Assembly: GCF_003431975.1 (NCBI RefSeq)
Contig: NZ_CP027116.1
Coordinates: 620,001 to 684,000, forward strand
Direction: 5' to 3'
From: Bacillus pumilus
Lineage (GTDB): Bacteria; Bacillota; Bacilli; Bacillales; Bacillaceae
Length of the DNA stretch: 64,000 nucleotides
Part shown: one piece after another, positions 42,461 to 64,000 of the stretch
Layout: each line of letters starts with the position of its first letter
Position numbering within the stretch: the stretch's first letter is position 1
Program-made: the position numbers and the translations under genes
Notes under the pieces: generated by a model
The model's database searches: none
Told to the model about the DNA's origin: nothing
What the model saw: only the letters and a program-made list of their open reading frames with translations

Positions 42461-43660
42461 ATGAAAAACAAATCATTTTACTTTTTATTAGGGGGACAAT
42501 CCCTAGCTAATTTTGGGGATTCGCTATATGTCCTCGTTCTAACCATCCTGACATATCAATTAACAAATTCTACACTGATTGCTTCAATGGTGGCTGTCTC
42601 GCAGTTTGTTGGACAAGCACTTGGAGCGGTACTTATTCCTTTCTTTATGTACCAATTTAAGCTAAAAAGATTCATTATCTATTTGCAAATGTGTCAAATT
42701 GCTTTCTTCGGCTGCTTGATTTTCATTTATATTCTACAATTATCAACTTTTACTATTCCTTTCTTTTTTATTATTGTATTTTTCCTTTCTTTGATAGATG
42801 GAGGAACGATTCCTGTTCGAAATTCGATGATCCCGCGTTTAGTAGAAAAGAATTTTTTACTAAAAGCTAATAGTTACATCTTAACTTCTGACCAAATGGT
42901 CCTTTTACTAGGCTGGCTGTTAGGAGGGCTGTTTATTGGCATTCTTGGACCACAGTTTCTCCTATTGACGACACTTGTTTTATACAGTTTGTCGCTCATA
43001 TCTATGCTCTTTATCATTGATACTGGGGCTGCAGCTAAACAAGAGCAACAGTCTGAATCATTTACTACAAGGGTCTTTTCAGGATGGAAGCTCATGTATG
43101 CAAAGCCTACTATTCGAACATTAACGATTTTAGAAATGCTGTCCATGAGTGGTAGAAGTATATGGACTGGTGCCATTATTCTTGTGTATGTCACAGAAGT
43201 CTTACACCAGCCAGAAACATGGTGGGGCTTTATTAACGCAAGCTATTTTGGCGGGACCATTCTAGGCGGCCTACTCGTACTGCGGTTCGCAAAACATGTG
43301 GAACAGCGTTTGTTTGATCACATTTTTTACAGTTCGGTGATCGTTGCTGTGCTAACCCTTTGTTTAGGATTGAATCATTCTGCGTGGATGAGTTTGTTGT
43401 TTGTTTTTTTATTAGGACCAGCCTTTCAGCTTCGCAGTATTTCCATTCGTACCTATGTACAAGATACATTGAGTGAAATTGAATTGCCTAAAATACTATC
43501 AGCTCAACATACACTATCAACTTTTATATATGGAATGTCTATCCTCGTTATGAGCACCATGACCGATCTCTTTGGGGCAAGAGTCGTCTTTTTTATAAAC
43601 GTTGCCCTGTTTACTGTGTCGGCCTTCCTAGCGTCTAAATTAAAAAATGAACATATTTAG
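42461..43660 (+). CDS. MFS transporter (MFS_3 type), probably part of the ami locus
   Basis: A 399-residue major facilitator with about ten to twelve helices, of the type that includes macrolide and siderophore exporters. The start GGQSLANFGDSLYVLVLTIL and GTIPVRNSMIPRLVEKNFLL in the cytoplasmic loop are typical. ATG 42461 follows TGGAGA; the longer frame from 42428 is less likely. It is a candidate exporter of the cluster product or precursor. It is 91 bases before the first NRPS gene, on the same strand, with no clear terminator between. Its substrate is inferred from position only. Confidence 0.7.
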   Translation: MKNKSFYFLLGGQSLANFGDSLYVLVLTILTYQLTNSTLIASMVAVSQFVGQALGAVLIPFFMYQFKLKRFIIYLQMCQIAFFGCLIFIYILQLSTFTIPFFFIIVFFLSLIDGGTIPVRNSMIPRLVEKNFLLKANSYILTSDQMVLLLGWLLGGLFIGILGPQFLLLTTLVLYSLSLISMLFIIDTGAAAKQEQQSESFTTRVFSGWKLMYAKPTIRTLTILEMLSMSGRSIWTGAIILVYVTEVLHQPETWWGFINASYFGGTILGGLLVLRFAKHVEQRLFDHIFYSSVIVAVLTLCLGLNHSAWMSLLFVFLLGPAFQLRSISIRTYVQDTLSEIELPKILSAQHTLSTFIYGMSILVMSTMTDLFGARVVFFINVALFTVSAFLASKLKNEHI

Positions 43661-43677
43661 ACATTTTATCTCAATTA

Positions 43678-43706
43678 TTTACAAAAATACCATTATATGA
43701 TTTAAT
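43678..43706 (+). promoter_or_regulatory. Candidate promoter of the ami NRPS/PKS operon
   Basis: TTTACA (43678-43683) and TTTAAT (43701-43706) lie 17 bases apart, 45 bases before the TTG start of the first NRPS. The match is moderate and the surrounding sequence is AT-rich, so other -10 choices exist. Confidence 0.4.
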
Positions 43707-43751
43707 ATGTTCGTAGAAATGTTAACTATATGAAAAGTAGAGGTGGCGTAA

Positions 43752-46700
43752 TTGACTAGTAGTTTAGTATATTGGCCATTAACACATCCGCAGCGGCGCG
43801 TGATGAACATGGAAACTTTTTATCCAGAAACACCGATCAATCATATTGGCGGGATCATTTTCGTCAATGGGCCGTTGCAGCTCGATAAACTGAAGCAGGC
43901 CATTGCATCTTGTATCATAATGACAGAATCACTTCGTCTCAAGCTAATAGAGAAAGATGGCGAAACGCTTCAATACGTTGACCCAAACACCGATCACACT
44001 ATTCCTACCTATGAGTTTTCCACACAAGAAGACATGCTAAAATGGGCCGAAAAAGCCTTCAAAACACCATTTCAATTAACAGAAACCTCTCTCGCCGAAT
44101 TTGCGGTACTAAAAATCGGTGAACAACAATCCGGTTATTTCATCAAATGCCATCATACAGTAGCAGATGGATGGTCGATGAAAGTAATCATCGATAAAAT
44201 TAGCCAGCTTTACACTGCTCTTACCCAAAGCTCCTCTATCGAACAAGAAGCAGACAATCATTCTGTATTTATTGATAAAGAATCAAAATATAGGAACTCC
44301 CCAAGATTTAAAAAAGATCAGCAATTTTGGAAAGAAGCATTATCTGATGTGTCTAATAGTTATTTGGTACAGGGAACTGAACAAATCAAAGGCCATCGGC
44401 AAAGCCATTACCTTGATCGCCAACTCTCAGAACGAATCTATGAATTTATAGATACCCATCATTGTTCAATCAACTCTTTATTTACTTTAGGACTTTTCAT
44501 TTACTTGCATAAAAGATACCAGCAAAAAGATTTTATTATTGGGACGCCAGTTCTCAATCGTTCCGGACAAAAGGAAAAAGCCACGTCCGGTATGACCGTG
44601 AGTACAATGCCATACCGAATGAAGGTGGATCCTCATCTATCTTTGTTAGAAAGTTTAACAGACGTTCAAAAAAGCTATAAGGCTTACTTCCTGCATCAGC
44701 GTTATCCCTATGATGCACTTGTCAAAGATTTAGAGCTTGCAAAAGCAGGGTATGATCAGCTTTTTCAAATCTATATCAACTCCTACAGCACAAATATGGT
44801 GCAGGAGATGGAAGGATACAAAGTTGAATACATAGAGCTTTACAATGGCTTCCAGCCCTATGGCTTACAAGTTGCTGTGAAAGAATGGGATGAAAAAGGG
44901 CAAATCGAGCTTCAATATGACTACAAGACCTCAGATTACAGCAATGAAGATATCGACTTTCTACACGAAAGAATGCTTCTCTTCGTCGAAACCATACTTG
45001 CTCAGCCAAAGCAGCTGTTAAAAGACATACTTCTCATGACAGAAGACGAGGAACACCGGGAGCTATATCAATGGAACGATACAGGCGTGCAATTTCCACA
45101 GAAACAAAAAATCCATGAATTGATCACAAACATGTCAACGTCTTCTCCTGATCGAATTGCACTTCAGGACGGATCTTATAGCATGACATACGGTGAACTT
45201 GAGAGAAAAACCAATCAAATGGCGCATTTTCTTCAAACACATGGCTTACAAAGACATGACTTTGTTGCCGTATGTATGAATCATTCACCAGAACTGATTG
45301 TGCTGCTGCTGGGGATTTTAAAGGCTGGAGGCGCATATGTACCGATTGATCCTGAGTATCCAGAGGAACGCATTCAGTTTATTTTGGATGACAGCCAGGC
45401 AAAGCTGTTTTTCACAAATGACGCATCTGCATACCAATTTAATGGCGATACGTACAATATCAGCAGCGTGTGGAATCAGCTCGCTCAGTATAATGAGGAA
45501 CATTCATTCACTGGGAATGATGAAGACGTCGCATATATGATTTATACGTCTGGCTCTACAGGACAGCCAAAGGGAGTCATGATTGAGCACGGAAGCTTAG
45601 TGAACTATATTATGTCTGCTAAAACACACTATACTGATTCACCAGATGATCACTTTGCCTTGTATTCATCCATTGCATTTGATTTAACTGTGACATCCAT
45701 TTATACGCCATTGGTCATTGGCAGTACAGTGGTGATCTATCGTCAAGAGGATCAGTCAGGCTTTTTATTAGAACATATTTTGCTTGATCAAAAAGCAAAA
45801 GTCATTAAGCTGACACCAGCTCATATGGCACTATTAACTGATGCTGCACTTTCTCAATCAGTTGTGAAACGGATGATTGTGGGCGGAGAACAATTATCGA
45901 CCGCTTTGGCCAAAAGAATCACAGAGGCAAGTGATGGAAGGATATCCATCTTTAATGAATATGGACCAACTGAAGCAACCGTTGGCTGTATGATTCATCA
46001 ATTCCATCAAGATGATGGAGGGACATCGGTGTCAATTGGTGTGCCAATGCCCAATACAGAGATCTACCTTTTAGATGAGAATCAGCAAGCTGTACTGCCT
46101 GGGACAGTGGGAGAAATCTATATATCAGGTGCAGGGGTTGGCAGAGGGTATTGGCAAAGACCTGATTTGCAGGAATCACGCTTTTTGCCCAATCCATTTG
46201 TAAACGGCCACCGCATGTATCGAACAGGTGATATCGCCAAACGAGCAAATGATGGAAAGATTGATTACATTGGCCGAATCGATCATCAAATCAAGCTGCG
46301 CGGCTACCGGATTGAGCTCGGTGAAATTGAACTTGCATTGATGGCACTTGAAGAAGTTGATAAAGCAGCTGTTATTGATCTAACCGATGAATCAGGAGAA
46401 AAACAGCTGGCTGCCTATATTGAATTAAAAGAAAAAAAGACGACATCCTTTTTACTGAGAAAGAAATTATCAGATCAGCTTCCAGCTTATATGGTCCCTG
46501 CCTATTTTGTTGTACTAGACGAGCTCCCGCTCACTCAAAACGGAAAAATCGATCGGACGGCACTGCCTGATCCATTGCTGTCTCAAGAAACAGCTGTTGA
46601 GTGGTCCAAGGAAACAGCGGACATTGAAGAGATCATCATAAATACAGCAAAAGACATCTTAGGGCATGAAACAATCGAACCGGCTGATCATTTTTATCAG

Positions 46701-48218
46701 CTTGGCGGAGATTCCATTAAGGCGATTCAATTTATTGCGAAGCTAAAAGACAAAGGACTCTATTTAAAGACAAAGGATCTTTTTACTTATCCCATTTTTA
46801 GAGAAATGGCACAAGTGGTTCAACAGGAACCTGTTATACATATCTCACAAGAGCAAGCTGTGGGTGATGTGAAATCGATCCCAATTATCGAATGGTTCTG
46901 GTCCCAGCGGTTAAAAGATGAACATTTTTGGCATCAATCCATCATTGTTCATTCAAAGAAAAAGATGGATGAAACTATCGTGCAGAAAGCTCTCAAAGAG
47001 CTTGTCATTCACCACGACGGACTAAGGTTAAAAGTACATGAGGCAACAAACACACTCTATTATGATGAAGACATTCAAGAGATTCCGCTGATGATTCACG
47101 ATTTCACAGCACTGTCAGAAGAGAATGTGGAAGAAACGTTACAAAAAGTAGGATATCAGGTCAAGCAAAGGACTCATCTTTATCAAGGACCATTGATTCA
47201 GGCGGCGCTATGTCAAACTGATTCTCAATCACATCTCATCTTTGCCGCCCATCATCTATTAGCTGACGGTATGTCTTGGCAAATTCTTGTGGAGGACTTG
47301 ATTCAATTATTGCATGCAGAGAAGGTTACAGCAGAAGTACTGCCGTCTAAAACCCATTCCTATCAAACATTTGCCGAGCGGGTGAATCAGTATGCAGGAT
47401 CAGAGGGTGTAAAAGAGTCGGTCAGCTATTGGCAAAAAGCGGTGCAAAATATTCAGCCTCTGTATCCAGTTTCCTCAAATGAGGGATATGTCAGAGACGC
47501 AATCAAATTAACCAACGCATTATCAGTGGAACTCACGAATCAATTGCTCAATCAAGCGAATCAAGCGTATCAAACGCAGCCGCATGAACTGTTAATTTCA
47601 GCCTTGACGCAAGCCTGTTATCAGCAAACGAATCAAGAGCGGATTTCTTTGGAATTAGAAGGTCATGGCAGGGATGCTGTAGAGGATGAGATCGATGTAT
47701 CTAGAACGTTCGGCTGGTTCACCACCATCTATCCTGTGAATGTTCATGTGTCTGAATCTCTTTCAGATCACATACGTGTTGTCAAAGAAACGATACGAGA
47801 AGTGCCAAATAAAGGTGCAGACTATGGGCTGTTGTCACTCATCAATCAGCAGCTTCCTCCTCATTCAGCACCACAATTACGTTTTAACTATCTAGGTGAA
47901 ATTGATCAAGTGCTTAAACAATCATCTGATTATGAGATGTCTTACTTTACATCGGGGATTGACTCGTCATTGGATAATCCATTAACAACCGTCATCGATA
48001 TGGTCGCTACCATCAAGGGTGGTCAGCTGATTTTCCATCTTTCTTTCAGCGAAAAACAGCTGTGTGAAACAGATATGACGCAGCTATTGCAAGCGGTAGA
48101 ACAGCAAATTGAGCGTCTTGTACAGCATTGCTTAGAGAAAGAAGGAATCGAATTTACACCGTCTGATTTTGAAACAGTGGATATGTCCCTTGAAGAAATG
48201 GATTCATTATTTACATGA
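43752..48218 (+). CDS. amiA: NRPS, C-A(Asn)-T-E, prodrug cap module
   Basis: A 1488-residue nonribosomal peptide synthetase. The condensation domain (1-430) has HHTVADG at 134-140 and, being first in the cluster, probably adds a fatty acyl group. The adenylation domain (about 455-960) has YTSGSTGQPKG and NEYGPTEATVG; its pocket residues read D-L-T-K-I-G-E-V-G, the asparagine code. The carrier domain Ser is 988 (GGDSIKA). The epimerization domain (about 1045-1480) has HHLLADG at 1167-1173, EGHGRD and FNYLGE. It should make acyl-D-Asn, the cap later cut off by the next gene product. TTG 43752 follows GAGGTGG. The letter A follows the published ami order as I recall it. Confidence 0.85.
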   Translation: MTSSLVYWPLTHPQRRVMNMETFYPETPINHIGGIIFVNGPLQLDKLKQAIASCIIMTESLRLKLIEKDGETLQYVDPNTDHTIPTYEFSTQEDMLKWAEKAFKTPFQLTETSLAEFAVLKIGEQQSGYFIKCHHTVADGWSMKVIIDKISQLYTALTQSSSIEQEADNHSVFIDKESKYRNSPRFKKDQQFWKEALSDVSNSYLVQGTEQIKGHRQSHYLDRQLSERIYEFIDTHHCSINSLFTLGLFIYLHKRYQQKDFIIGTPVLNRSGQKEKATSGMTVSTMPYRMKVDPHLSLLESLTDVQKSYKAYFLHQRYPYDALVKDLELAKAGYDQLFQIYINSYSTNMVQEMEGYKVEYIELYNGFQPYGLQVAVKEWDEKGQIELQYDYKTSDYSNEDIDFLHERMLLFVETILAQPKQLLKDILLMTEDEEHRELYQWNDTGVQFPQKQKIHELITNMSTSSPDRIALQDGSYSMTYGELERKTNQMAHFLQTHGLQRHDFVAVCMNHSPELIVLLLGILKAGGAYVPIDPEYPEERIQFILDDSQAKLFFTNDASAYQFNGDTYNISSVWNQLAQYNEEHSFTGNDEDVAYMIYTSGSTGQPKGVMIEHGSLVNYIMSAKTHYTDSPDDHFALYSSIAFDLTVTSIYTPLVIGSTVVIYRQEDQSGFLLEHILLDQKAKVIKLTPAHMALLTDAALSQSVVKRMIVGGEQLSTALAKRITEASDGRISIFNEYGPTEATVGCMIHQFHQDDGGTSVSIGVPMPNTEIYLLDENQQAVLPGTVGEIYISGAGVGRGYWQRPDLQESRFLPNPFVNGHRMYRTGDIAKRANDGKIDYIGRIDHQIKLRGYRIELGEIELALMALEEVDKAAVIDLTDESGEKQLAAYIELKEKKTTSFLLRKKLSDQLPAYMVPAYFVVLDELPLTQNGKIDRTALPDPLLSQETAVEWSKETADIEEIIINTAKDILGHETIEPADHFYQLGGDSIKAIQFIAKLKDKGLYLKTKDLFTYPIFREMAQVVQQEPVIHISQEQAVGDVKSIPIIEWFWSQRLKDEHFWHQSIIVHSKKKMDETIVQKALKELVIHHDGLRLKVHEATNTLYYDEDIQEIPLMIHDFTALSEENVEETLQKVGYQVKQRTHLYQGPLIQAALCQTDSQSHLIFAAHHLLADGMSWQILVEDLIQLLHAEKVTAEVLPSKTHSYQTFAERVNQYAGSEGVKESVSYWQKAVQNIQPLYPVSSNEGYVRDAIKLTNALSVELTNQLLNQANQAYQTQPHELLISALTQACYQQTNQERISLELEGHGRDAVEDEIDVSRTFGWFTTIYPVNVHVSESLSDHIRVVKETIREVPNKGADYGLLSLINQQLPPHSAPQLRFNYLGEIDQVLKQSSDYEMSYFTSGIDSSLDNPLTTVIDMVATIKGGQLIFHLSFSEKQLCETDMTQLLQAVEQQIERLVQHCLEKEGIEFTPSDFETVDMSLEEMDSLFT

Positions 48219-49756
48219 GGAAAAATCAGTATGTTATGTATCTGTCATTTTTATTAGCGATCTTATGGATAAGCAGCTTTGCCGGGGGGATACATGCAAA
48301 AGCAGTGATTTCATCTAAAGCCATTGATCAAGTGATCGAGCAACAGATGGAGCTTGGACGCATTCCAGGCATGTCCGTTGTGGTTGTGAAAAAGGACGAA
48401 ATGGTGTATCAAAAAGGCTTTGGATATGCGGATCGAAAGAAAAAGAAGCAAGTGACAGCTAGCACTTTCTTTGAAATTGGATCTACATCAAAAGCGTTTA
48501 CCGCTCTTGCGATTGTGGAGTTAGAGAAGCAAGGAAAACTTCATTTAAAAGACCCGGTGAGCAGCTATATTCCAGGTTTTTTTCCAACATACAATGGAAA
48601 GCCTCAGCGTTTAACGGTGGAGCAATTCATGCATCACACAAGCGGCATTCCCTTTCAATCTATTGCGCTGATCCAGCCTGATACTGCAAAGGATGCATTG
48701 AAAAAAACAGTTGATCAGCTGAAATCAATCGAGCTTAATCGTAAGCCAGGCAGTTCCTTTGAATATGCGACCATCAACTATGATGTCCTTGGTCTCATCA
48801 TTGAAAATGTAACAGGAACATCGTATGAGGCTTATATGAAAGAGCTGTTTAAAAGGCATCATCTTGACCAAACGGAGGCTGGGCTAAAGCGGATGAAATC
48901 CGGTGCCGTCTCAGAAGGATTTAAACTGCAATTCCTTGCTCCGCATGCTTTTAAAGCACCAGAATATCGAGGCAACACCCCTGCAGGCTATATTGTGATG
49001 AATAGTCAGGATGTGGGGACTTGGCTGCAATATCAATTGACCGATTCAACTTGGTCTCGCTTTGTAAAAAATCCTGATCACTTAACTGTGAATGTCCCAG
49101 AAGAAGGGAAGCATGTCTATTACAATGCCGGCTGGTATATAGAAAAGGCGCATGAGCAGGTGGACTCGCTTTTTCATGCAGGCTCTAACCCAAACTATTC
49201 ATCATTTTTTCTGATCCAGCCAAAAGAAGGGATTGCGATCGGAGTGTTAGCAAATATGAATAGTAGCTACTCAGAGCAAACGGCACGTCTTATTGCCAAA
49301 ACGATCACAGGCACAAATGAAGAAGCAGAGTCATCAATGGATCCTTTTCAGCTCATTGATCAATTGAGCCTTGGTGCCACATGTCTTTTCATTTTGCTGC
49401 AAATAGTATCTATCGTGCGTTTTATCAAGTGGAAAAAGCGTGTAAGAAACGGCGCTTTCGTTCGCAGGGACATGTCACTTCGCGTTTGGCTGAAAAGTAG
49501 CGGCTGGGTGCTGCTGCTAATTGGGATATTGCTCCTGCCAATGATTGTTGCGCAGCTAGCCTTTAATGGGCTGCCTTGGAAAATGACTTTTGTATGGGGA
49601 CCTTCCTCTCTCATTGAATTAGCGATTTCTTATTATTTGTTTTTCATATGGTTTTGTACGATTGGTTTCATCAAAGGATTTATGGTGACATCTCATGCTG
49701 GAAAGAGAGGAAAAAAAGATGACCGTCAAACAGATTTCGGGCATTCATCCTTATAA
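48215..49756 (+). CDS. amiB: S12 prodrug-activating D-Asn peptidase (ClbP/ZmaM/XcnG-like)
   Basis: A 513-residue membrane peptidase of the beta-lactamase S12 family. A signal peptide (1-30) precedes the catalytic domain, with Ser90 and Lys93 (STSK), Tyr184 (FEYATINYDVLG) and H321-A-G. Three C-terminal membrane helices (about 385-405, 428-450, 465-490) match ClbP, ZmaM and XcnG, which remove an N-acyl-D-Asn cap during export. The residue two after Tyr is Thr, where the common YxN has Asn. ATG overlaps the amiA stop by four bases (ATGA). Best reading: cuts the acyl-D-Asn cap from preamicoumacin outside the cytoplasmic membrane. Confidence 0.87.
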   Translation: MRKNQYVMYLSFLLAILWISSFAGGIHAKAVISSKAIDQVIEQQMELGRIPGMSVVVVKKDEMVYQKGFGYADRKKKKQVTASTFFEIGSTSKAFTALAIVELEKQGKLHLKDPVSSYIPGFFPTYNGKPQRLTVEQFMHHTSGIPFQSIALIQPDTAKDALKKTVDQLKSIELNRKPGSSFEYATINYDVLGLIIENVTGTSYEAYMKELFKRHHLDQTEAGLKRMKSGAVSEGFKLQFLAPHAFKAPEYRGNTPAGYIVMNSQDVGTWLQYQLTDSTWSRFVKNPDHLTVNVPEEGKHVYYNAGWYIEKAHEQVDSLFHAGSNPNYSSFFLIQPKEGIAIGVLANMNSSYSEQTARLIAKTITGTNEEAESSMDPFQLIDQLSLGATCLFILLQIVSIVRFIKWKKRVRNGAFVRRDMSLRVWLKSSGWVLLLIGILLLPMIVAQLAFNGLPWKMTFVWGPSSLIELAISYYLFFIWFCTIGFIKGFMVTSHAGKRGKKDDRQTDFGHSSL

Positions 49757-50699
49757 TGATTTGTTTTATCGCAGCTGTTTCTTCAATTGCTTTTTTCCAA
49801 TTGTGAAGCTGCACAATCAAGAAGTTTCTCCATACTTATTAAATGATCAATTTGCCTACGGGCTTAAAGAGAATGGTTTGCTACAGATTGACTGGATGCC
49901 GGCACACGATCCAGAAAAAATTATGAATGCACAAGGCATTCAAGTCGAAAAAATGGCGTATTGTCCCAACCTCATTGAAAAGGTCAAGCAAGATGTGACA
50001 TGTGACCGCCCGGTAATCGTTTGGGTAGACCCTTACGTTCAGCGAGGCAGAAAAGAGTATTTGACAACCCATAGCCGTCATTCCATTTTAATCACTGGGT
50101 TCGATGAAAATCAGCAAATCTTTCACGTATTAGAGAATCGGCATTTAGATAATTTGTCTTATGAGCATCAAGTGCTGTCATTTAAAGATGTACAGAAAGG
50201 GTATGACACCTTTCATGATCATTTTCAGCCGAATGATCAATTTCATTCCTATGCGGCTTTCTACTTTGATCCAGACAAGCTCTCGACTGAGTTATTTAAT
50301 CAAAAAACGACTTATTTCCTGAGAAATATGCTTGGTCAGATAGATGCAATAGAAAAAGGAATCACAGCTCTTGAAACATTTTATGAGCAGTTTTTGCAAT
50401 GGGATGATATTGAGAGGCTCGTGGCGTCTTTCAATCAGATCATCAATACGAAGAAAGTGGAGCTGTATCGACTGAATCTCATCAAAGACGATCTACCTGA
50501 GCTGGTGGGATGGATGGAACGTATTTTAGCAGAATGGGAGAAAGCGAGGCATCAGGCAGCGAAACTCCTTTTTTCAGCTGAGATGTCTAGTAGGTACCAA
50601 GCCAATATCAAAGCTTCTTTAGAACAAATTATTCATGATGAAAAACACTGGCTGGAGGAATTGGAAATGAAATGCAAAAGGGAGTGTGGCGTATCGTGA
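49719..50699 (+). CDS. BtrH-like protein of the ami cluster
   Basis: A 326-residue protein. The N-terminal half resembles the BtrH N-terminal domain: a Cys-rich start (YRSCFFNCFFPIVKL), then VDPYVQRG and HSRHSILITGFDENQQIFHV, where a Cys and a His could form a papain-like pair. The rest is helical. BtrH in butirosin biosynthesis transfers an acyl group from a carrier protein to an amine. Here a transfer or peptidase role in tailoring can only be guessed. It starts at ATG 49719 after AGAGAGGA and overlaps amiB by 38 bases. By order it would be amiC. Confidence 0.7.
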   Translation: MTVKQISGIHPYNDLFYRSCFFNCFFPIVKLHNQEVSPYLLNDQFAYGLKENGLLQIDWMPAHDPEKIMNAQGIQVEKMAYCPNLIEKVKQDVTCDRPVIVWVDPYVQRGRKEYLTTHSRHSILITGFDENQQIFHVLENRHLDNLSYEHQVLSFKDVQKGYDTFHDHFQPNDQFHSYAAFYFDPDKLSTELFNQKTTYFLRNMLGQIDAIEKGITALETFYEQFLQWDDIERLVASFNQIINTKKVELYRLNLIKDDLPELVGWMERILAEWEKARHQAAKLLFSAEMSSRYQANIKASLEQIIHDEKHWLEELEMKCKRECGVS

Positions 50700-52260: not shown

Positions 52261-52274
52261 GAGGAGAATAACCA

Positions 52275-53330: not shown

Positions 53331-53357
53331 AAAAGCGAAAAGCGAGGAGATTAAATC

Positions 53358-53627
53358 ATGAACCTACACGAACAAGTAAGAGCCTATATCGAGCAAAACC
53401 TAGTGGTATTTGATGAGGAAATTGAGCTTGGAAATGATGATCATATTTTTGAACAAGGCTTTGTGAATTCTCTATTTGCGATGAAACTAGTGAACTATAT
53501 CGAACATGACTTTCAATTCCAATTAGACAACGAAGACCTCGACATTGCTCATTTTAGTACGGTCAATCGCATTGTCGCCTTAATTGAGAGAAAACAACAG
53601 GGGGCAGCTCTTCATGAAAACAGCTGA
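53358..53627 (+). CDS. Acyl carrier protein for hydroxymalonyl unit
   Basis: An 89-residue carrier protein of the FkbJ/ZmaD type. The phosphopantetheine Ser is in GFVNSLFAMKLVNYIE, where Asn-Ser replaces the common Asp-Ser. It carries the three-carbon glyceryl unit through oxidation to hydroxymalonyl. AGGAG precedes ATG 53358, and the 3' end overlaps the dehydrogenase gene. By order it would be amiG. Confidence 0.9.
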   Translation: MNLHEQVRAYIEQNLVVFDEEIELGNDDHIFEQGFVNSLFAMKLVNYIEHDFQFQLDNEDLDIAHFSTVNRIVALIERKQQGAALHENS

Positions 53628-54756: not shown

Positions 54757-54775
54757 AGAGAAAGGAGATGAGCCC

Positions 54776-57700
54776 ATGGCTTTACAGCCGCAGAAGCTGG
54801 ATAAACAGAACATTGAAAATATGTTAGGTATCACTACGATCCAAGAAGGACTGCTGTTTCATCATTTAATGGAACCGAACGGAACAGCTTATTTTGAACA
54901 ACTGATGATCGAAATAGACGGACCAATAGATCGAGACATTTTTGAACAATCATGGACGAATGTCACCAAACAGCATGAAATGCTTAGAACATTGTTCAGA
55001 TGGCAGGAACTCGCAAGACCAGTACAAATTGTGCTGAAGCAGCATCAGCCAGACATTCGTTATCGTGATTTCACGCAAGCGAAGGAGCCTCTTCATGTGC
55101 TGAAAGAAGAGGTAAAGGCACAGAACCGAGAAGAACGCTTTGATCTGCAGGAAGTCCCATTCCGCCTGACGTTATGTGAAGTGAATGATGAAGTCAGCTG
55201 GGTTCTCATTAGCTTTCATCACATTTTATTGGACGGCTGGAGCCTTGGGATTGTATTAAGCGATTGGATGAGTGCATATGAGCGCTTATCGAATGGGGAC
55301 AAACCTCTTCTGGAACAAAGACCAACCTACCAATCCTTTGTCAAATGGCAGCAGAAAAACCTTCAACAGACTGAAGCACAAGCCGCCTATTGGAAAAATG
55401 TTTTCAACGGCTGGAGTTATGCAGAACTGCTTCCGAAGTCAAGCGGCGCATATGAAGATTCAGAAGCGTTCCATCAATATGAACATCAAGTGGATACTTC
55501 CATTGCCGAGAGCCTGAGCAAATTCACGAATCAATATGACGTGACGCTGGCATCTGTGATGTATACGCTGTGGGGAGTTTTGCTATCTAAGTATGCCAAC
55601 CAAGATGATATTGTCTTTGGGACAACAGTATCGGGGAGAAATGCAGATGTCCCTCATATTGAAAAGATGACTGGGCTGTTCATTAACACATTACCGCTGC
55701 GGGTCTCATTCGAACAGGAACGGCCAATTCTTGAACAGATGCAGGAAGTGAGCCGTGAGATCGCTGTAAGAAATGAATATGAACATACTCCGCTATCTGA
55801 CTTAAAGAAATATGCAGGAATGACTGCAGAGCAATCCTTATTTGATTCAATCGTCGTCATTGAAAACTATCCATTAGATCAAATGCTCACGAAAAACGAT
55901 CAGCCAATTCGTATTCGTGGATTTGAGATGACTGAGCAGACAGAATTCGATCTCACGCTTAGTGTCCAGGCATTTGATGATCAGCTGCACTTTTCATTGG
56001 TGTATAACCCCGTCAGCTTTTCAGCTGAGCAAATCGAAAAGTGGTGTCAGCATTTTCTTCATCTCCTGTCTGATGCCTGTGCTCATCCGCACAAAACTGC
56101 TGCTCAACTACAGCTGCTATCAGAAGAAGAGAAAGAAAAGCAGTTGGCAATTTTTCGGCAATATGGCGGAGCAACATCTAGCAATGAGCCAACGGTGATT
56201 GACCTATTTGAAGCACAAGTAGAGCGAACTCCAGCGGCAGCTGCAGTTGAGTTTGGCGATACGACGGTTACATATGAACAACTCAATAAGAGAGTGAACC
56301 AGCTCGCACATTATTTACAAAACAAAGGGGTCAAACAGGAGCAGCGTGTCGGCATTTTAGCAGAGCATTCCATTGAAATGGTGATAGCATGCTTAGCGAT
56401 CTTAAAAGCTGGTGGTGCATACGTGCCGATTGATCCTGAATATCCGCAGGAACGAATAGAATATCTATTAGAAGACAGCGGAGTAGAATGGCTCTTAACT
56501 CACCCAATAAAAGGGCTCACCTACGCCTATCATGGAGAAAAAATCGATATCACGCAGCCGGATCTATACACCGGACCATCAGACAACTTGGCAGAAGCCA
56601 TCACCTCAGACCAAACAGCCTACTGCATTTATACATCAGGAACGACCGGAAGACCAAAAGGTGTACTCATTCATCATCTTGGCTTAGCCAACTATATTGA
56701 ATGGGCGAAGCAAGTATATGTTCGAGGAGAAACAAGGCATTTTGCTTTGTACACTTCACTGTCCTTTGACCTGACGGTTACTTCTATTTTCACACCGCTC
56801 ATTTCAGGAAATACCATCATGATTTATCACCATGAAAACCGGCAGCTGCTTGTCGAAGACATCATAAAAGACAACCGTGTACATGTGATGAAACTGACAC
56901 CATCCCATTTACAGTTTATTAAGCATTTGTCTTTCCCAGACAGCCAAATGAAATGTTTCATTTTAGGCGGAGAGCAGCTGGAAACATCTTTAGCGAAATC
57001 CATTCAGCAGTCCTTCCCGCAGCCAATTGAAATTGTGAATGAATATGGACCAACTGAAACGGTCGTTGGCTGCATGATTCATCGATATGATCAGGATCTT
57101 GATCAAGACGTGTATGTACCGATTGGAAAGCCTGCACAGCATACAGATATTCTTCTGTTTGACAAACATATGAATCTCATGCCGGAAGGAGCCGTCGGTG
57201 AATTATATATTGGCGGAAAAGGTGTCGCAAAAGGCTATTTGAATCGCCCAGAACTAACCGAAGAAAGATTTGTCGATCACCCTTTCCAGCCAGGAGAAAA
57301 AATTTATAAAACAGGTGATGCAGCGCGCATCCTCCCTAATGGGCTCATTCAATTTTTAGGTCGAAATGATGATCAAGTGAAGCTGAGAGGCTACCGGATT
57401 GAAACTGGTGAAATTGAATTTTGGCTGAATGAACAGCCAGGAATAAAAGCAGCAGCAATTGTTGTAAAGCCAGATGCTTCTGGTACACCATGTTTGGCCG
57501 CATATGTTGTCACGACAGCCATACTTGATCAAGCGGCAATAAAACAAGCGTTGGCTGATCAACTGCCGGATTATATGATTCCAACTCATTTTGTTCAATT
57601 GGACGATATGCCACTGACTGCAAATGGCAAACTAGATAAACGAGCTTTACCTGCTTTGAAACAGGCGCAGCAAACGAAAAAACAGGCGGGATCTACCAAT

Positions 57701-60700
57701 CTTTCTGATACGGAGAAAGTTATTCAAGACATTTGGAAAAAAGTCCTCGGATTAGATGAGGTAAGTGTCCATGACAAATTCTTTGACATTGGCGGGCATT
57801 CACTCAATTTGATCCACGTCAATCAACAGCTCGCTAAGCAATTGAATCAAAGCATTCCAATGGTCGAAATGTTCCGCCGCCCAACGATTAGAGAGCTTGC
57901 CGCATATTTAAGCGGCGATTCAGAGCAAGTAGCGGCAGACGCGCAGCCTGTAAAACAAAAGACAAGAAAAGCCAATGAGCCGATTGCCATTATTGGAATG
58001 GCTGGTAAATTCCCAGGTGCGAAAAATGTTGAGGCATTTTGGCGAAATTTGAAGAACGGAGAAGAATCAATTTCCTTCTTTTCCGATGAAGAACTGCTCG
58101 AAGCCGGTATTGACCGTCAAACTTTCGAACGTTCCGATTATGTGAGGGCAAAAGGTGTCATTGATGGACCTGATTTATTTGATGCATCCTTCTTCGGCTA
58201 TTCGCCAGGTCAGGCAGAAATGATGGATCCTCAAATACGTCTTCTGCATGAGTACGCCTATAAGGCGTTGGAAGATGCGGGGTATGTGCAAGAAGATTAT
58301 ACGGGTAAGGTCGGGTTGTTTACTGGGTCCACATCGAATTTCCAATGGATTCAGCGTTTTGCCGCTTCCCTTGATAGCAGTATGTCAGAGCTGTTTGAAG
58401 TGGGTTCACTCAATGATACCTACACTGTAAGTACAAGAATTGCCCATAAATTGAATTTGAAAGGACCGGCGCTTACGCTGCAAACCGCTTGTTCAACTTC
58501 TTTGGTCGCCTTGCATTTAGCCTGTCAATCCATTGCGAATGGTGATTCAGATGTAGCTCTTGCGGGAGGTGTGTCGATCCTGCACCCAGTGAAATCAGGC
58601 TACGTTTATCAACAGAACATGGTGAAATCAAGTGATGGCCACTGCCGCGCCTTTGACGATCAAGCGGATGGAACTGTTGGCGGAGATGGTGTTGGTCTTG
58701 TTGCTTTAAAAGCACTTAGTGAAGCCATAGAAGATGGCGACCATATTTATGCAGTCATTAAAGGATCTGCCATCAACAATGATGGTGATCAAAAGGTTGG
58801 TTTCAATGCTCCGAGCGTCGAAGGACAGACACGTGTCATTCAGGATGCACTGCATCAAGCAGATGTTTCACCAGATACGATTGAATATGTGGAAACACAT
58901 GGAACAGGCACATCACTTGGTGACCCGATTGAAATAGAGGCGCTCACAAAGGCTTTCGACACACAGAAAAAACAATTTTGCCGCATTGGGTCTGTGAAAA
59001 CCAATATTGGACATTTGGATGCAGCGGCAGGAGCAGCTGGCTTGATCAAAGCTGTGCTTTCGCTTCAGCATCACACATTTGTACCTAGTCTTCACTTCAA
59101 AAAAGCCAATGAAAACATTGCATTTGAACATAGTCCTTTCTTTGTTAATACTGAGCTGACCGACTGGAATCAGCCAGCTTCCCATTTGCGGCGGGCTGGG
59201 GTGAGCTCATTTGGAATGGGTGGAACGAATGCACATGTCATATTAGAAGAAGCGCCACAAAGAGACCGTCAGCAAATGCCTCGTTCTGCTGAGCTGCTTG
59301 TTCTTTCAGCAAAGAGCAAAACGAGCTTGGAACGAATGAAAGCCAAACTCGCAAGCCAAATAGACAACACGCCTTCTATCAATTTGGCAGACGCAGCTTA
59401 TACGCTGCAAACAGGAAGACAATCCTTTGGTTTCCGTCAGACATTTGTTGCGGCAAGCAGAGAAGATGCTTTGCGCGTATTAACAGAAAAGCAAGGAAAG
59501 GGCATTGGAAAGCTCATGCATTCGCATGTGGAGAAACAAAAGATTATTTTTATGTTTTCTGGACAAGGCAATCAATATCTCAATATGGGATTAGATTTGT
59601 ACCGGGAAGAGCCTTACTTTAAGAAGCAAATGGATGCTTGTTTTCAAGCATATGAAGAAGCAACGGGGCGAAGTCTTGCACGTATTCTGTACCCATTAGC
59701 GGCTGAAACAGAAAAGGCGCGTGAACAATTGGCAAGTACTCAATATGCACAGCCAGCCATTTTTGCCATTGAATATGCCTTATCCATGCTTTTCATTGAA
59801 TGGGGCGTTCGTCCTGATGCAATGATCGGCTATAGCTTTGGCGAATTAACGGCAGCCGCCATATCAGGGCTATTCAGCTTAAAGGACGCAATGTCCATGG
59901 TCGCCTATCGTGCGAATGCGATGCAGTCGTCACCATCTGGCGTCATGATGAGTGTTCCATTACCTGAGGCAGAGCTTAAACCGATGCTTCCAAAAGATAT
60001 TTCTCTCGCGGTTGTCAATGATTCATCATGTATTGTGTCAGGTCTAGAAGAGGCGATCAGTGAATTTGAACAAGAGCTGAAAAGCAACAGATTGATGTGT
60101 ATGCGATTAGGTGGAACCATTGCCGCCCACTCACATGTCATGAAGGAGGCAGCGGAGCAATTCGGAGAAAAATTAACACATATGAAAGCCGAGTCTCTTC
60201 GCATTCCATTCATTTCGAATTTGTCAGGAGATTGGATGACAGATACGAGAGCGAAGGATATGTCTTATTGGAAAAGGCATATGACTGATACAGTTCGTTT
60301 TGCTGAAGGGATCACAAATATTTTACAAGAGGACAATATTCAATTAATTGAGATTGGACCAGGACAAGATTTAAGCGTGATGGTCAATCGGTCGCTGAAC
60401 GGCCTGAACCAGCATGTATGTCATGTGTTAAGGCATGCAAAACAAGATGTGACGGATACTGAATTTTTACTTGGGCAAATAGGACGTCTGTGGACAAACG
60501 GATTATCTATTGATTGGGATAGGTTCCATCTAAACCGTCAGCCGCGGAAAATGCCGCTGCCAACGTATGTGTTTGATCAAACCTCCTATTGGTATGATGC
60601 AGCAGATCGTGTGAAACAAGACAAACCAAAGCAATCTGGACGAAAGCAGCAAATGGCTGAATGGTTCTATACCCCTCATTGGGAAGCGGATCTTTTACCT

Positions 60701-63700
60701 TGCGTGCCATTAGAAGATACGTCTGACGGAGCCTTGCTTTTGTTTGCAGATCCATCTGCTTTTGGAGAGAAGGTTACGGCTGAGCTCCTGACGAAACGGA
60801 ACGAGTCCGTCATGGTTCGTAAAGGAAATGAATTTACAAAGCATGACGAAAAAAGCTATACCATTCGGTCACATGAGCCATCTGATTATGAAAGGCTCAT
60901 ATCAAATCTGGCAGATGACGAAATCAACGTGTCAAAAGTTTGCCATCTATGGGGGCTTGCAGAAAGACAGCCGTCTCAAACGGAAGAAGAATGGGTGAAG
61001 CAAACGCAGCAAGAAGCTTATTACTCCTTGCTTTATATCGGCCAGGCACTGAAAAAATATGTGTTGGACCAAAAGGTATCGATTACAGTTCTTTCCTCAT
61101 TGACGTATGCCGTTGGCGGTGAGCCTGTACTTTATCCTGAAAAAGCGATCCATCTAGGACCTGCCATGGTGATATCACAAGAAACCCCGAACTTACGTTA
61201 CCGCATTATTGATATTGATCGTCCAGTGGAAAATGGGGTTCAAGAAAAGAGATTGCTAAAGCAAATAAGCGATGAGCTAGATCGAGCGTATGGACCGCTT
61301 CTCACGGTCTATCGACGAAATAAACGATATGTGAAAAAGTATGCGAAAGGTTCAGTTCCCGAAACGGGACATGCTCATTTGGCTAAAAAAGATGGTGTGT
61401 ACATTTTAATTGGCGGACTTGGGTTTATTGGATTGAATATCGCCCAGACTTTGGCCGAGCTAACGCAGGGAACATTGATCTTAACGAGCAGATCTGGGCT
61501 CCCTGATAGAAGCAAGTGGCAAGAATGGCTGTCTACGCATGATGATCAGGATCTAACAAAGATAAAAATACAAAGGGTCATGGCACTGGAAGAGACAGGC
61601 GCAGACGTTCTTATTCAGAAAGTAGACGTTCGTCACAAGGAAGATATCCAGCAATTGATCAACACAGTGGATGCGTCATATGGACAGATCAATGGCGTGA
61701 TCTATGCAGCTGGAGTGACAGGCGACCAATCCTTGCAGGTGATGGAGCAAACAGATGTCACTTTTTCGGAGCCGCATTTTGAAGCGAAGATGAATGGTGT
61801 ACTTCATCTTGATGATGCCTTAGGTGATCGATCCCTTGATTTCTGTTTTGTCCTGTCATCTTTGTCACCGATCTTGGGCGGACTCGGTTTTACAGCCTAT
61901 ACAGCTGTGAATCATTTCATCGATGCGTACGTGTATGAACGCAATCTACGTTCAGAAACACAGTGGTCTGTCATTAGCTTTGACGGCTGGGAATTTGAGC
62001 AAGGGAAGCAGCTTGATCTTCCAATCGGAGATGATGTTACCGAAACGTTAATTACAGAAAAAGAAGGAAGAATGATCTTTGAACGATTGCTTTCACTGGA
62101 TCAAGTGGAACAAATGGTTATTTCAACAACATCTTTACATGATCGTATTCACCGATATGTAGACCGTTTATCCCTTGAGGAAGAGAGCGGCGTGGAGCAT
62201 GAACAAGATGGCAATTTGTATTCTCGTCCAGCGCTTTCCACGAATTATGCGGCTCCAGAAACGGAGCTGGAGAAGGCATTAAGTCAACATTGGCAAGCTT
62301 TCTTTAAGATTGATGAAATTGGCATAGATGATCATTTCTTTGAAATGGGCGGAGATTCTCTAAAGGCGATTACCTTCATTGGTATCATTCATCGTGCATT
62401 TAGTGTAGAGCTGACGCTGCCACAATTTTTCCAAATACCTACGATACGATTAATGGCAGCATATATCGATCAAGCAGATACTGCTGCTTATCATGCGATT
62501 GAAAAAGCCGAAGTGAAGGAGCATTATCCTTTGTCGTCTGCGCAAAAACGGTTGTATCTCATGCAGCAAATGGATGTAAACAGCACAGGATACAACGAGT
62601 TTAAAGCGGGGCGAATCAAAGGAAAACTCGATATTAGCAGGTTGGAATGGGCATTTCAGCAGCTTATTAAGAGACACGAAAGTTTGCGGACTGCGTTTGT
62701 ACTAGAGAATGGTGTTCCTTATCAAAAGATTGAAGAAGAGGTACCATTTGCAGTCACATTATTTGACCTCACTAACGGATCAACACAAGGATCTGAGGAA
62801 GAGCAAAAACAAGTGATTGAACAATTTTTGACTGCCTTTACGTTAAGTGAGGCTCCATTGATGAGAGTCGGTGTGATGAAGCTGGCAGAAGAGGAATTCG
62901 TGCTCATGCTGGACATGCACCACATTATTTCAGACGGTCTTTCTCAAGATATTTTGGTCAATGACTTTATGCAGTTATATGACGGCAGGACGCTTGAACC
63001 TCTCGCTCTGCAATATAAAGATTTTTCAGAATGGCAAAATGACCTGCTGGCATCAGAAGTACTGAAAGAATCGAGTGATTACTGGAAAGATCGGTTAGAG
63101 GGTGCCCCCCTCCTTGATCTGCCAACAGATTTCGATCGGCCAGAGGTGAGACAATTCCGCGGCGGGCATTATACGTTCCGTATAGAAGAAGCAGAGCTAA
63201 ACGCATTTAAACAGGTGATTTTAAAGGAAGACGCTACACTGTTTATGGGCTTGTTAAGTGTATATCAGATTTTGCTTTACAAATTAAGCGGACAATCAGA
63301 TATCACGGTCGGGGTTCCGGTAGCAGGGAGAAAACAAGAGGAGCTGCAGCAAGTGATCGGTATTTTTGTCAATATGCTGCCACTTCGTTTGTATCCTAAA
63401 GCAGAGCTGACGTACCAGCAATTCCTAGAGGATGTGAAAGCACACGTCATCGATGATTTCGGACATCAAGATTATCAATATGAACAAATGGTTCAAGACC
63501 TTCAGTTAAGCCGGAGTGTCAGCCGGAATCTATTGTTTGATGCTGTGTTCGCCTTGCAAAATATGAATCAGCCAGAACTGAAGGTAGGCGGTTTAACCTT
63601 TAGTGATTATCCGTATGAGACAGGAACGTCACGCTTTGATTTACTCTGGATTGCGTATGAGCAGGAAGACGGTCTTTCTTCAACGATCGAATATAATACT

Positions 63701-63865
63701 GAGCTTTTCACAGAGGAAACCATAGAGCGGATTGCGGGCTTGCTGAAAGACATCATGCGGGCTGTTTCAGTAGATGCTGTAAGAATAGAGGAGATCGAAC
63801 TGACTTCTTCGTTCCAGCAATTAGATGACGTATCTCTTTTCGAATTAGATGACTTGAAAATATAA
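54776..63865 (+). CDS. amiI: Hybrid NRPS-PKS, C-A(Asn)-T-KS-AT-KR-ACP-C
   Basis: A 3029-residue megasynthase. C1 (12-450) has HHILLDG at 148-154. The A domain (about 470-950) has YTSGTTGRPKG and the pocket code D-L-T-K-I-G-E-V-G, asparagine. T1 Ser is 1009. KS (1068-1490) has Cys1239, His1375, His1413. AT (1590-1890) has GQGNQ at 1596 and Ser1687 in GYSFG; the specificity motif is I-A-A-H-S at 1782-1786, not HAFH, consistent with an unusual extender. KR has GGLGFIG at 2213-2219 with Ser2362, Tyr2375, Asn2379. The ACP Ser is 2528. C2 (2580-3010) has HHIISDG at 2715-2721, and an acidic tail could dock to the next protein. It joins acyl-D-Asn to Asn, extends it with hydroxymalonyl and reduces it. 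AAAGGAG precedes ATG 54776. Confidence 0.9.
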   Translation: MALQPQKLDKQNIENMLGITTIQEGLLFHHLMEPNGTAYFEQLMIEIDGPIDRDIFEQSWTNVTKQHEMLRTLFRWQELARPVQIVLKQHQPDIRYRDFTQAKEPLHVLKEEVKAQNREERFDLQEVPFRLTLCEVNDEVSWVLISFHHILLDGWSLGIVLSDWMSAYERLSNGDKPLLEQRPTYQSFVKWQQKNLQQTEAQAAYWKNVFNGWSYAELLPKSSGAYEDSEAFHQYEHQVDTSIAESLSKFTNQYDVTLASVMYTLWGVLLSKYANQDDIVFGTTVSGRNADVPHIEKMTGLFINTLPLRVSFEQERPILEQMQEVSREIAVRNEYEHTPLSDLKKYAGMTAEQSLFDSIVVIENYPLDQMLTKNDQPIRIRGFEMTEQTEFDLTLSVQAFDDQLHFSLVYNPVSFSAEQIEKWCQHFLHLLSDACAHPHKTAAQLQLLSEEEKEKQLAIFRQYGGATSSNEPTVIDLFEAQVERTPAAAAVEFGDTTVTYEQLNKRVNQLAHYLQNKGVKQEQRVGILAEHSIEMVIACLAILKAGGAYVPIDPEYPQERIEYLLEDSGVEWLLTHPIKGLTYAYHGEKIDITQPDLYTGPSDNLAEAITSDQTAYCIYTSGTTGRPKGVLIHHLGLANYIEWAKQVYVRGETRHFALYTSLSFDLTVTSIFTPLISGNTIMIYHHENRQLLVEDIIKDNRVHVMKLTPSHLQFIKHLSFPDSQMKCFILGGEQLETSLAKSIQQSFPQPIEIVNEYGPTETVVGCMIHRYDQDLDQDVYVPIGKPAQHTDILLFDKHMNLMPEGAVGELYIGGKGVAKGYLNRPELTEERFVDHPFQPGEKIYKTGDAARILPNGLIQFLGRNDDQVKLRGYRIETGEIEFWLNEQPGIKAAAIVVKPDASGTPCLAAYVVTTAILDQAAIKQALADQLPDYMIPTHFVQLDDMPLTANGKLDKRALPALKQAQQTKKQAGSTNLSDTEKVIQDIWKKVLGLDEVSVHDKFFDIGGHSLNLIHVNQQLAKQLNQSIPMVEMFRRPTIRELAAYLSGDSEQVAADAQPVKQKTRKANEPIAIIGMAGKFPGAKNVEAFWRNLKNGEESISFFSDEELLEAGIDRQTFERSDYVRAKGVIDGPDLFDASFFGYSPGQAEMMDPQIRLLHEYAYKALEDAGYVQEDYTGKVGLFTGSTSNFQWIQRFAASLDSSMSELFEVGSLNDTYTVSTRIAHKLNLKGPALTLQTACSTSLVALHLACQSIANGDSDVALAGGVSILHPVKSGYVYQQNMVKSSDGHCRAFDDQADGTVGGDGVGLVALKALSEAIEDGDHIYAVIKGSAINNDGDQKVGFNAPSVEGQTRVIQDALHQADVSPDTIEYVETHGTGTSLGDPIEIEALTKAFDTQKKQFCRIGSVKTNIGHLDAAAGAAGLIKAVLSLQHHTFVPSLHFKKANENIAFEHSPFFVNTELTDWNQPASHLRRAGVSSFGMGGTNAHVILEEAPQRDRQQMPRSAELLVLSAKSKTSLERMKAKLASQIDNTPSINLADAAYTLQTGRQSFGFRQTFVAASREDALRVLTEKQGKGIGKLMHSHVEKQKIIFMFSGQGNQYLNMGLDLYREEPYFKKQMDACFQAYEEATGRSLARILYPLAAETEKAREQLASTQYAQPAIFAIEYALSMLFIEWGVRPDAMIGYSFGELTAAAISGLFSLKDAMSMVAYRANAMQSSPSGVMMSVPLPEAELKPMLPKDISLAVVNDSSCIVSGLEEAISEFEQELKSNRLMCMRLGGTIAAHSHVMKEAAEQFGEKLTHMKAESLRIPFISNLSGDWMTDTRAKDMSYWKRHMTDTVRFAEGITNILQEDNIQLIEIGPGQDLSVMVNRSLNGLNQHVCHVLRHAKQDVTDTEFLLGQIGRLWTNGLSIDWDRFHLNRQPRKMPLPTYVFDQTSYWYDAADRVKQDKPKQSGRKQQMAEWFYTPHWEADLLPCVPLEDTSDGALLLFADPSAFGEKVTAELLTKRNESVMVRKGNEFTKHDEKSYTIRSHEPSDYERLISNLADDEINVSKVCHLWGLAERQPSQTEEEWVKQTQQEAYYSLLYIGQALKKYVLDQKVSITVLSSLTYAVGGEPVLYPEKAIHLGPAMVISQETPNLRYRIIDIDRPVENGVQEKRLLKQISDELDRAYGPLLTVYRRNKRYVKKYAKGSVPETGHAHLAKKDGVYILIGGLGFIGLNIAQTLAELTQGTLILTSRSGLPDRSKWQEWLSTHDDQDLTKIKIQRVMALEETGADVLIQKVDVRHKEDIQQLINTVDASYGQINGVIYAAGVTGDQSLQVMEQTDVTFSEPHFEAKMNGVLHLDDALGDRSLDFCFVLSSLSPILGGLGFTAYTAVNHFIDAYVYERNLRSETQWSVISFDGWEFEQGKQLDLPIGDDVTETLITEKEGRMIFERLLSLDQVEQMVISTTSLHDRIHRYVDRLSLEEESGVEHEQDGNLYSRPALSTNYAAPETELEKALSQHWQAFFKIDEIGIDDHFFEMGGDSLKAITFIGIIHRAFSVELTLPQFFQIPTIRLMAAYIDQADTAAYHAIEKAEVKEHYPLSSAQKRLYLMQQMDVNSTGYNEFKAGRIKGKLDISRLEWAFQQLIKRHESLRTAFVLENGVPYQKIEEEVPFAVTLFDLTNGSTQGSEEEQKQVIEQFLTAFTLSEAPLMRVGVMKLAEEEFVLMLDMHHIISDGLSQDILVNDFMQLYDGRTLEPLALQYKDFSEWQNDLLASEVLKESSDYWKDRLEGAPLLDLPTDFDRPEVRQFRGGHYTFRIEEAELNAFKQVILKEDATLFMGLLSVYQILLYKLSGQSDITVGVPVAGRKQEELQQVIGIFVNMLPLRLYPKAELTYQQFLEDVKAHVIDDFGHQDYQYEQMVQDLQLSRSVSRNLLFDAVFALQNMNQPELKVGGLTFSDYPYETGTSRFDLLWIAYEQEDGLSSTIEYNTELFTEETIERIAGLLKDIMRAVSVDAVRIEEIELTSSFQQLDDVSLFELDDLKI

Positions 63866-63885
63866 GTAAAGAGGTGAATGCAAGA

Positions 63886-64000
63886 GTGATTGAACATGAT
63901 GATTTTCAACTGAAAGCAGCGGCGAAGGAAAGGGTGAGGGAAAGAGCCTACTGGACATCGATCTTATCAGGTGTCCAGCTTGATGGCCGCATTCCACATA
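63886..64000 (+). CDS. Next NRPS module, N-terminal part (runs off edge)
   Basis: The first 38 codons of a gene that leaves the window. VRERAYWTSILSGVQL has the sequence found between condensation and adenylation domains, so the protein begins with an A domain and the assembly line is split after the terminal C domain of the preceding protein. In the amicoumacin pathway this A domain would load leucine, which cannot be checked here. GTG 63886 follows AAAGAGGTG. By order it would be amiJ. Confidence 0.7.
   Translation, partial: MIEHDDFQLKAAAKERVRERAYWTSILSGVQLDGRIPH

Follow-up and report, generated by a model that had tools for sequence, protein, structure and literature searches.

The amicoumacin-type gene cluster of a Bacillus pumilus genome: a conserved C*-FkbH-ACP tail on AmiM and AmiC as a candidate off-loading enzyme

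We studied an amicoumacin-type (ami) gene cluster whose first part lies in a 64,000-nt stretch of the Bacillus pumilus contig NZ_CP027116.1 (G000:C1:620001-684000, from a 3.94-Mb genome in 1 contig), called the window in the following. On the plus strand from position 42428, the window holds amiP (MFS), amiA-B-C-D-E-F-G-H-I and the initial 127 bases of amiJ. The remainder of amiJ, amiK-L-M-N and a reversed amiO are found outside the window in the same genome, and an MgtC-family gene comes after amiO. The whole set covers genome positions 662428-707169 (44.7 kb), i.e., only its front part is inside the window, and its order is the published one (Table 1). Since gene content and order match the described clusters, we are highly confident that the window contains the beginning of a whole amicoumacin-type cluster (B. 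pumilus type), both in its identity and in the route outlined below; the predicted product is amicoumacin A, made via an acyl-D-Asn prodrug. That is, the cluster is a further copy of an already described type, and its chemistry itself is known. The interest lies in the line's ending, for which the accessible literature names no release enzyme for AmiM and lists amiC as hypothetical. We find that AmiM does not end at KS-AT-ACP, which goes beyond the known description of the cluster, and tentatively propose AmiC as an off-loading enzyme.

Table 1. Genes of the ami cluster. Positions are those of the window, continued beyond its end where marked as window-equivalent.
Gene	Domains or assignment	Position	Strand	Evidence
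amiP / Orf1	MFS transporter	42428..43660 (42428 = longest-frame start)	+	PF07690, E 6.1e-15
amiA	nonribosomal peptide synthetase (NRPS), C-A(Asn)-T-E; predicted acyl-D-Asn cap	43752..48218	+	Pfam, code DLTKIGEVGK, E motifs
amiB	S12-type membrane peptidase; prodrug activation by homology	48215..49756	+	PF00144, E 1.3e-62
amiC	papain-like fold; predicted carrier-protein-dependent acyltransferase/off-loader	49719..50699 (49695 by longest frame)	+	
amiD	stand-alone thioesterase	50672..51406	+	PF00975, E 6.7e-43
amiE	3-hydroxyacyl-CoA dehydrogenase-like (3HCDH); hydroxymalonyl-ACP	51403..52260	+	PF02737/PF00725
amiF	FkbH glyceryl-loading enzyme by family	52275..53330	+	TIGR01686, 281.6 bits vs. cut-off 146.65
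amiG	acyl carrier protein	53358..53627	+	PF00550
amiH	acyl-CoA dehydrogenase-like	53584..54756	+	PF00441/PF02771/PF02770
amiI	C-A(Asn)-T-KS-AT-KR-ACP-C	54776..63865	+	Pfam, code DLTKIGEVGK
amiJ	C-lobe-A-T (start only in window)	63874..64000, runs to window-equivalent 66555	+	
amiK	KS-AT-KR-ACP	window-equivalent 66548-71053	+	
amiL	KS-[vestigial AT]-ACP-KS-AT-KR-ACP, 2416 aa	window-equivalent 71054-78304 (L010:11054-18304)	+	
amiM	KS-AT-ACP-C*-FkbH-ACP, 2140 aa	window-equivalent 78297-84719	+	
amiN	APH-family kinase	window-equivalent 84712-85719	+	PF01636
amiO	alkaline phosphatase	window-equivalent 85763-87169	-	PF00245

An earlier reading of the window, termed the original prediction here, had recognised an amicoumacin cluster from its module logic, which gene order, domain layout, AmiN/AmiO and the KR pattern support. 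The C-A-T-E layout of AmiA is recovered by Pfam; the second C-like domain contains EGHGR and NYLG, motifs of E domains. AmiB is, as described before, an S12 peptidase with an N-terminal hydrophobic stretch in the place of the signal peptide and three C-terminal ones (about 380-406, 422-454 and 465-493); it has SxxK at residue 90. The four-gene hydroxymalonyl-ACP set is amiE-H, with no methyltransferase gene between them, and Pfam and code likewise return the reported domain layout of AmiI. All genes listed earlier are thus present, but amiC and amiD had been left out of that list. The split announced before an A domain is real; amiJ, however, begins not with the A domain but with a partial condensation domain, namely its C-terminal lobe. 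That is, the AmiJ N-terminus matches positions 186-455 of the condensation profile only, although AmiI ends in a complete condensation domain. AmiJ measures 889-915 aa in other clusters, which suggests that the partial lobe is retained there. Upstream, an amiP homologue (59-98% identical) occupies the same place in 7/7 other Bacillus clusters read.

A-domain codes were taken from motif anchors, guided by the surfactin-type A domains of the same genome and not by PheA, and K was assumed for position 517. AmiA and AmiI both yield DLTKIGEVGK, which we take to be an Asn code. The AmiJ code is DAQDLGAVQK, and AmiJ of G011 and G039 has DAQDMGNVQK. The classic Leu code was looked for in AmiJ and not found, and DAQDLGAVQK is not known to be a Leu code; such a code is atypical for Leu and counts against the amicoumacin assignment. 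Still, the B. inaquosorum-type AmiJ (G011) shares the signature, and we thus do not take the atypical code, i.e., the finding named in advance as a possible refutation, as one. For the cluster of B. subtilis 1779, trifluoroleucine feeding supported Leu (PMC4894447; all papers are cited from their accessible text). The arm route proposed earlier, i.e., Asn plus a reduced hydroxymalonyl unit joined to a Leu-derived unit, therefore stands.

To the right of the window, the expected A domain, polyketide synthase (PKS) modules, AmiN kinase and AmiO phosphatase are all present, but not a thioesterase domain in AmiM (none by Pfam/NCBIfam profiles; AmiD is free-standing) and, as said, not a textbook Leu code. 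A KR domain is present in AmiK and in AmiL module 2 and absent from AmiL module 1 and AmiM. By polyketide logic, this pattern would provide for the lactone-closing hydroxyl, the carbonyl needed in the ring-closing aldol, the site that loses its oxygen and the phenol, which is what an 8-hydroxy-dihydroisocoumarin needs. AmiL module 1 has only a vestige of an AT (profile positions 52-115, E 1e-4 on a cut piece), such that its loading would depend on an AT from elsewhere. Within the proposed route, AmiA would serve to build the acyl-D-Asn cap, AmiI to attach Asn and the hydroxymalonyl unit from AmiE-H, giving the amino-dihydroxy-amide arm, and AmiJ to attach Leu. AmiK-L-M would then contribute four malonyl units, with a reduction pattern that lets the chain close to the 8-hydroxy-dihydroisocoumarin. 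AmiB is expected to take the cap off outside the cell, AmiN to phosphorylate the drug and AmiO to reactivate it.

For the gene-by-gene comparison with the published amicoumacin cluster, we used G011 as proxy for B. subtilis 1779. The AmiM of G011 is 99.2% identical to a B. inaquosorum protein, and the proteins of B. inaquosorum KCTC 13429 are >97% identical to those of 1779 (PMC5055758). Compared via G011, our cluster shares genes, order, orientation and the Asn/Asn codes with amiA-O of 1779 and KCTC 13429 (PMC4894447), with protein sizes within 5%. Relative to G011 itself, protein identities are 43-80%, AmiL is about 100 aa shorter, and the AmiJ codes differ as given above. The 1779 paper states a 47.4-kb region, and its contig range 95,452-140,246 amounts to 44.8 kb (PMC4894447). 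Three ami cluster types have been named (PMC8835302), and ours is the type of the B. pumilus group (e.g., B. safensis CB729, PMC12366304; AmiM 2140 here vs. 2136 aa there). The locus of B. safensis S-11 shows 93.7% DNA identity over 26.8 kb, and we found no difference of substance from the accessible B. pumilus-group clusters. In contrast to the missing textbook Leu code, which could point to another zwittermicin- or xenocoumacin-like backbone, the gene order identical to the B. inaquosorum-type cluster, the similar sizes and near-identical codes, the presence of amiN and amiO and the KR pattern suited to an isocoumarin make such a product very improbable.

The AmiM tail past KS-AT-ACP comprises a condensation domain (1007-1439), an FkbH domain (1646-1964; TIGR01686 275.3 bits vs. 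cut-off 146.65) and a second carrier (Pfam, NCBIfam). The condensation motif reads HNIVADG instead of the canonical HHxxxDG, and the domain is thus presumably non-condensing. HNxxxDG recurs in 13/13 AmiM proteins and in 26/26 loci (the sets overlap); aligning our AmiM with 12 others of 49-96% identity shows H1134, N1135, D1139 and G1140 unchanged throughout. The same holds for D1651, D1653, S1696, K1730, D1752, D1753 and C1915 of FkbH and for the carrier S2098 (13/13); all but the two serines we take to be FkbH catalytic residues. The 26 AmiM loci with HN consist of 12 from Bacillus (ours included), one from the Paludifilum-type genome G393 and 13 from family f19. HH is found in 13 other C-FkbH loci, with six further loci unread in this respect (G256, G342, G478, G492, G605, G704). 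At the protein level (best 120 of 1284 FkbH proteins), HHxxxDG precedes 23 domains in 22 non-AmiM proteins and HN occurs in no readable one; 9 domains in 8 proteins had no readable motif and were left out of this comparison. Since all AmiM read carry HN and the readable non-AmiM C-FkbH blocks carry HH, the exchange seems to be ancient and confined to AmiM.

The tail was matched in 13/44 Bacillus genomes (12 full length, 1 remnant in G036), and among named records AmiM is found in B. stratosphericus, B. pumilus (two strains), B. safensis S-11 and B. zhangzhouensis, with best segments 88-96% identical. The 1779 paper counts eight modules (PMC4894447), and two later papers label AmiM a polyketide synthase; published AmiM lengths of 2136 and 2142 aa take in the tail. 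We found no literature pairing amicoumacin with FkbH, with subscription papers and supplements outside our reach. A duplication of AmiF as the tail's source was rejected: AmiM tails and AmiF proteins are just 25-27% identical.

Is the tail a relic? The respective alternative has the chain leave AmiM spontaneously or by AmiD and the lactone close unaided, with AmiC doing something else. It draws on the lost condensing His, on AmiD being a free-standing thioesterase and on X. bovienii (Xenorhabdus bovienii), which still makes amicoumacin A without amiC and, judged by protein length, without the tail (PMC5055758). To assess decay, we computed ratios of nonsynonymous to synonymous substitution rates (dN/dS) for this genome against five congeners. 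The HN condensation domain shows 0.037-0.057 (5/5 pairs) and FkbH 0.061-0.203, compared to 0.016-0.029 for KS and 0.063-0.194 for AT; the linker ahead of the final carrier ranges from 0.34 to 0.87. The tail is under purifying selection, i.e., it is kept rather than decaying. These values, together with the invariant FkbH DxD, Lys, Asp-Asp and Cys and the second-carrier Ser, weaken the relic idea, and with the retention of AmiC reported below they leave unaided or AmiD-driven release rather unlikely.

AmiC is described as "hypothetical" in the accessible published tables, in which literature we also found no experiment on amiC; deletions of amiA and amiB are reported for 1779 (PMC4894447). PF13529/PF14399 profiles match 14/14 aligned members. 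For our AmiC, PF13529 (Peptidase_C39_2) reaches 31.4 bits (cut-off 24), and the BtrH_N match stays below its cut-off. A sequence search of the PDB returned 4 rows, none relevant (best E 0.39). The AlphaFold2 model (predicted local distance difference test score, pLDDT, 87) gave structural matches to CcbD, AziU3 and CtaG (8-12% identity). Over its full length it has the same fold as CcbD and CtaG, which are carrier-dependent acyltransferases. Among the relatives considered (CcbD/LmbD of lincosamides, CtaG of closthioamide, BtrH of butirosin), the likeness to CcbD/CtaG would extend to a conserved Cys-His-Glu set. The AmiC residues C20, H118 and E139 are invariant in 14/14 members and suitably placed in the secondary structure of the model. 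The Peptidase_C39_2 match would also suit a C39-type peptidase acting in transport or deacetylation. This role has been put forward for the Paenibacillus-type gene (PMC8835302), and we regard it as quite improbable for AmiC.

Next, we compared the occurrence of AmiC and the HN tail. Within the 44 Bacillus genomes, AmiC occurs in all 12 that have a full AmiM tail and in no other; G036 (tail fragment only) and the 31 other genomes show none at E 1e-5. The Paludifilum-type G393 has AmiC, too. Family f19 appears to be Paenibacillaceae-like judged from named relatives, e.g., Paenibacillus apiarius, whose AmiM shares 68% identity with the G432 protein. Each of the f19 HN loci (13/13) has a BtrH_N gene 39-42 kb further upstream, compared to about 0.47 of 13 expected under uniform placement. 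Where we read the context (G432, partly G662 and G634), the gene next to it is AmiA or a C-A-T-C frame of AmiA size. BLASTP did not find AmiC in G432; we treat the BtrH_N gene there (E 5.9e-6, below cut-off) as the AmiC counterpart. Counted this way, AmiC or a BtrH_N relative accompanies 26/26 HN loci. For the remainder of the 30 top loci, a BtrH_N match on the same contig and no more than 50 kb away was seen for at least 4/13 HH loci and 1/4 others; the HH figures are lower bounds given the matches listed, with at least 3 genomes having one match more. Outside this count, BtrH_N matches are found in G256 at distances of about 9 and 33 kb to the FkbH gene, and G342 has none within 200 kb of its FkbH locus.

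In other f19 genomes, AmiC-like domains also occur fused behind a carrier, as C-terminal parts of synthase subunits. From at least 14 BtrH_N matches in frames of at least 990 aa, we took 8 for study. Five C-termini align with the AmiC motifs, G703 (2354 aa) by motifs only and the other four also by Pfam: KS-ACP-AmiC-like in G714 (1132 aa), KS-KR-ACP-KS-ACP-AmiC-like in G705 (2371 aa) and G463 (2410 aa), and KS-KR-ACP-AmiC-like in G626 (1496 aa). AmiC's Cys, His and Glu are invariant columns across all five. In single pairwise BLASTP comparisons, AmiC is 27% identical to the 1132-aa G714 protein over 306 aa (E 1e-38) and 25% to the G705 domain over 279 aa (E 4e-32). Weaker matches concern a 6716-aa G714 protein and G454, where a BtrH_N-like C-terminus (E 1.5e-4, below cut-off) follows a C-FkbH-carrier block in the same protein; the G718 match has about 290 residues behind it. 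A domain attached to the final carrier suggests a role at the end of the line, in off-loading.

We therefore propose AmiC as a trans-acting off-loader of AmiM, based on the fused homologues following the last carrier and the lack of a thioesterase domain in AmiM; we put the chances of this prediction at a little below even. AmiC would take the finished chain from the AmiM carrier onto Cys20, and the Leu-derived hydroxyl would close the lactone; the presumably non-condensing C*-FkbH-ACP tail would be conserved as part of the terminal apparatus. Put more generally, and with the same reserve, the Gram-positive amicoumacin line might end in an apparatus made of a ninth, HN-condensation block with intact FkbH and carrier plus AmiC as free-standing off-loading domain, and AmiC-like domains might be a thioesterase-independent ending of polyketide and hybrid lines in Paenibacillaceae-like genomes. 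If AmiC is a carrier-dependent off-loader, the C-terminal AmiC-like domains, matched now only as C39_2 or BtrH_N, gain a function.

Several observations weigh against this proposal. The amicoumacin and xenocoumacin clusters of X. bovienii have homologues of amiA, B and D-M and the prodrug logic in common with ours, but the amicoumacin producer is without amiC, amiN and amiO, and its AmiL-M has 3419 aa vs. 2416+2140 here, i.e., by table lengths about 1100 aa too short for the tail (PMC5055758). Since it produces amicoumacin A nonetheless, amiC and the tail are not chemically indispensable. Li et al. have the chain rearrange to the ring system and, in the accessible text, name no release enzyme (PMC4894447). 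The structural likeness of AmiC to CcbD and CtaG is that of a model at the low identity given above. Moreover, the acceptor of CcbD is an external amine of another molecule, unlike the internal hydroxyl proposed for AmiC. No BtrH_N gene is found close to many of the C-FkbH loci that are not AmiM, and the 26 loci may share one origin, such that 26/26 would not represent 26 independent events.

Finally, AmiC could instead serve a glyceryl-loaded tail carrier. Here, the tail would load D-glycerate on its own carrier and AmiC would hand the glyceryl to some acceptor, yielding glycerylated congeners or a second removable cap. The FkbH score with the catalytic residues in place, the acyl transfer from carrier to amine by CcbD (PMC12945683) and the order of domains in G454 fit this scheme. 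On the other hand, glycerylated amicoumacin was not found in the accessible literature, the preamicoumacins A-B of the amiB mutant carry D-Asn with two acyl chains (PMC4894447), and the five fused AmiC-like domains come after KS-ACP or KS-KR-ACP and not after FkbH-carrier. We thus consider glyceryl transfer improbable, though somewhat less so than the peptidase role, and retain off-loading by AmiC as the preferred, tentative reading.

The AmiC/BtrH_N-like C-terminal domains of PKS and hybrid subunits, seen in several Paenibacillaceae-like genomes (L117, L120, L124, L125, L127; weaker L114, L115), are possibly an unnamed terminal domain type. Among the ami loci of other genomes, G018:C1:709299-713171 (L060) shows an in-frame shortening of amiL, with residues 1020-2144 of 2416 gone (1-based 1020-2145), i.e., most of module 2; the other ami genes are present, and the gap is either a true deletion or an assembly error. 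In G036:C1:720127-726468 (L065), the amiA-M core is down to fragments of amiB, amiA and amiM next to full-length MFS, amiN, amiO and mgtC frames, a gene content according to which self-protection is retained and synthesis lost. A seemingly broken amiF in G020 was dropped, as the stops came from an over-long match to an intact 357-aa frame. In the Paenibacillaceae-like G432:C1:4855156-4900846 (L053-L055), the AmiI code is hydrophobic (DAF-type) and not Asn, and the AmiJ code DAWFLGNVVK is what we take to be the classic Leu code. Past AmiM follow an AmiF-like gene (35%), a small ACP-like frame (by eye), a GNAT gene and a BpsA_C-type gene; judged by these codes and genes, the product may be other than amicoumacin. 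Our genome itself has 33 Condensation matches, those of the ami cluster counted in, and other NRPS clusters at G000:C1:369483-410535, 2599380-2626992 and 3893606-3898087.

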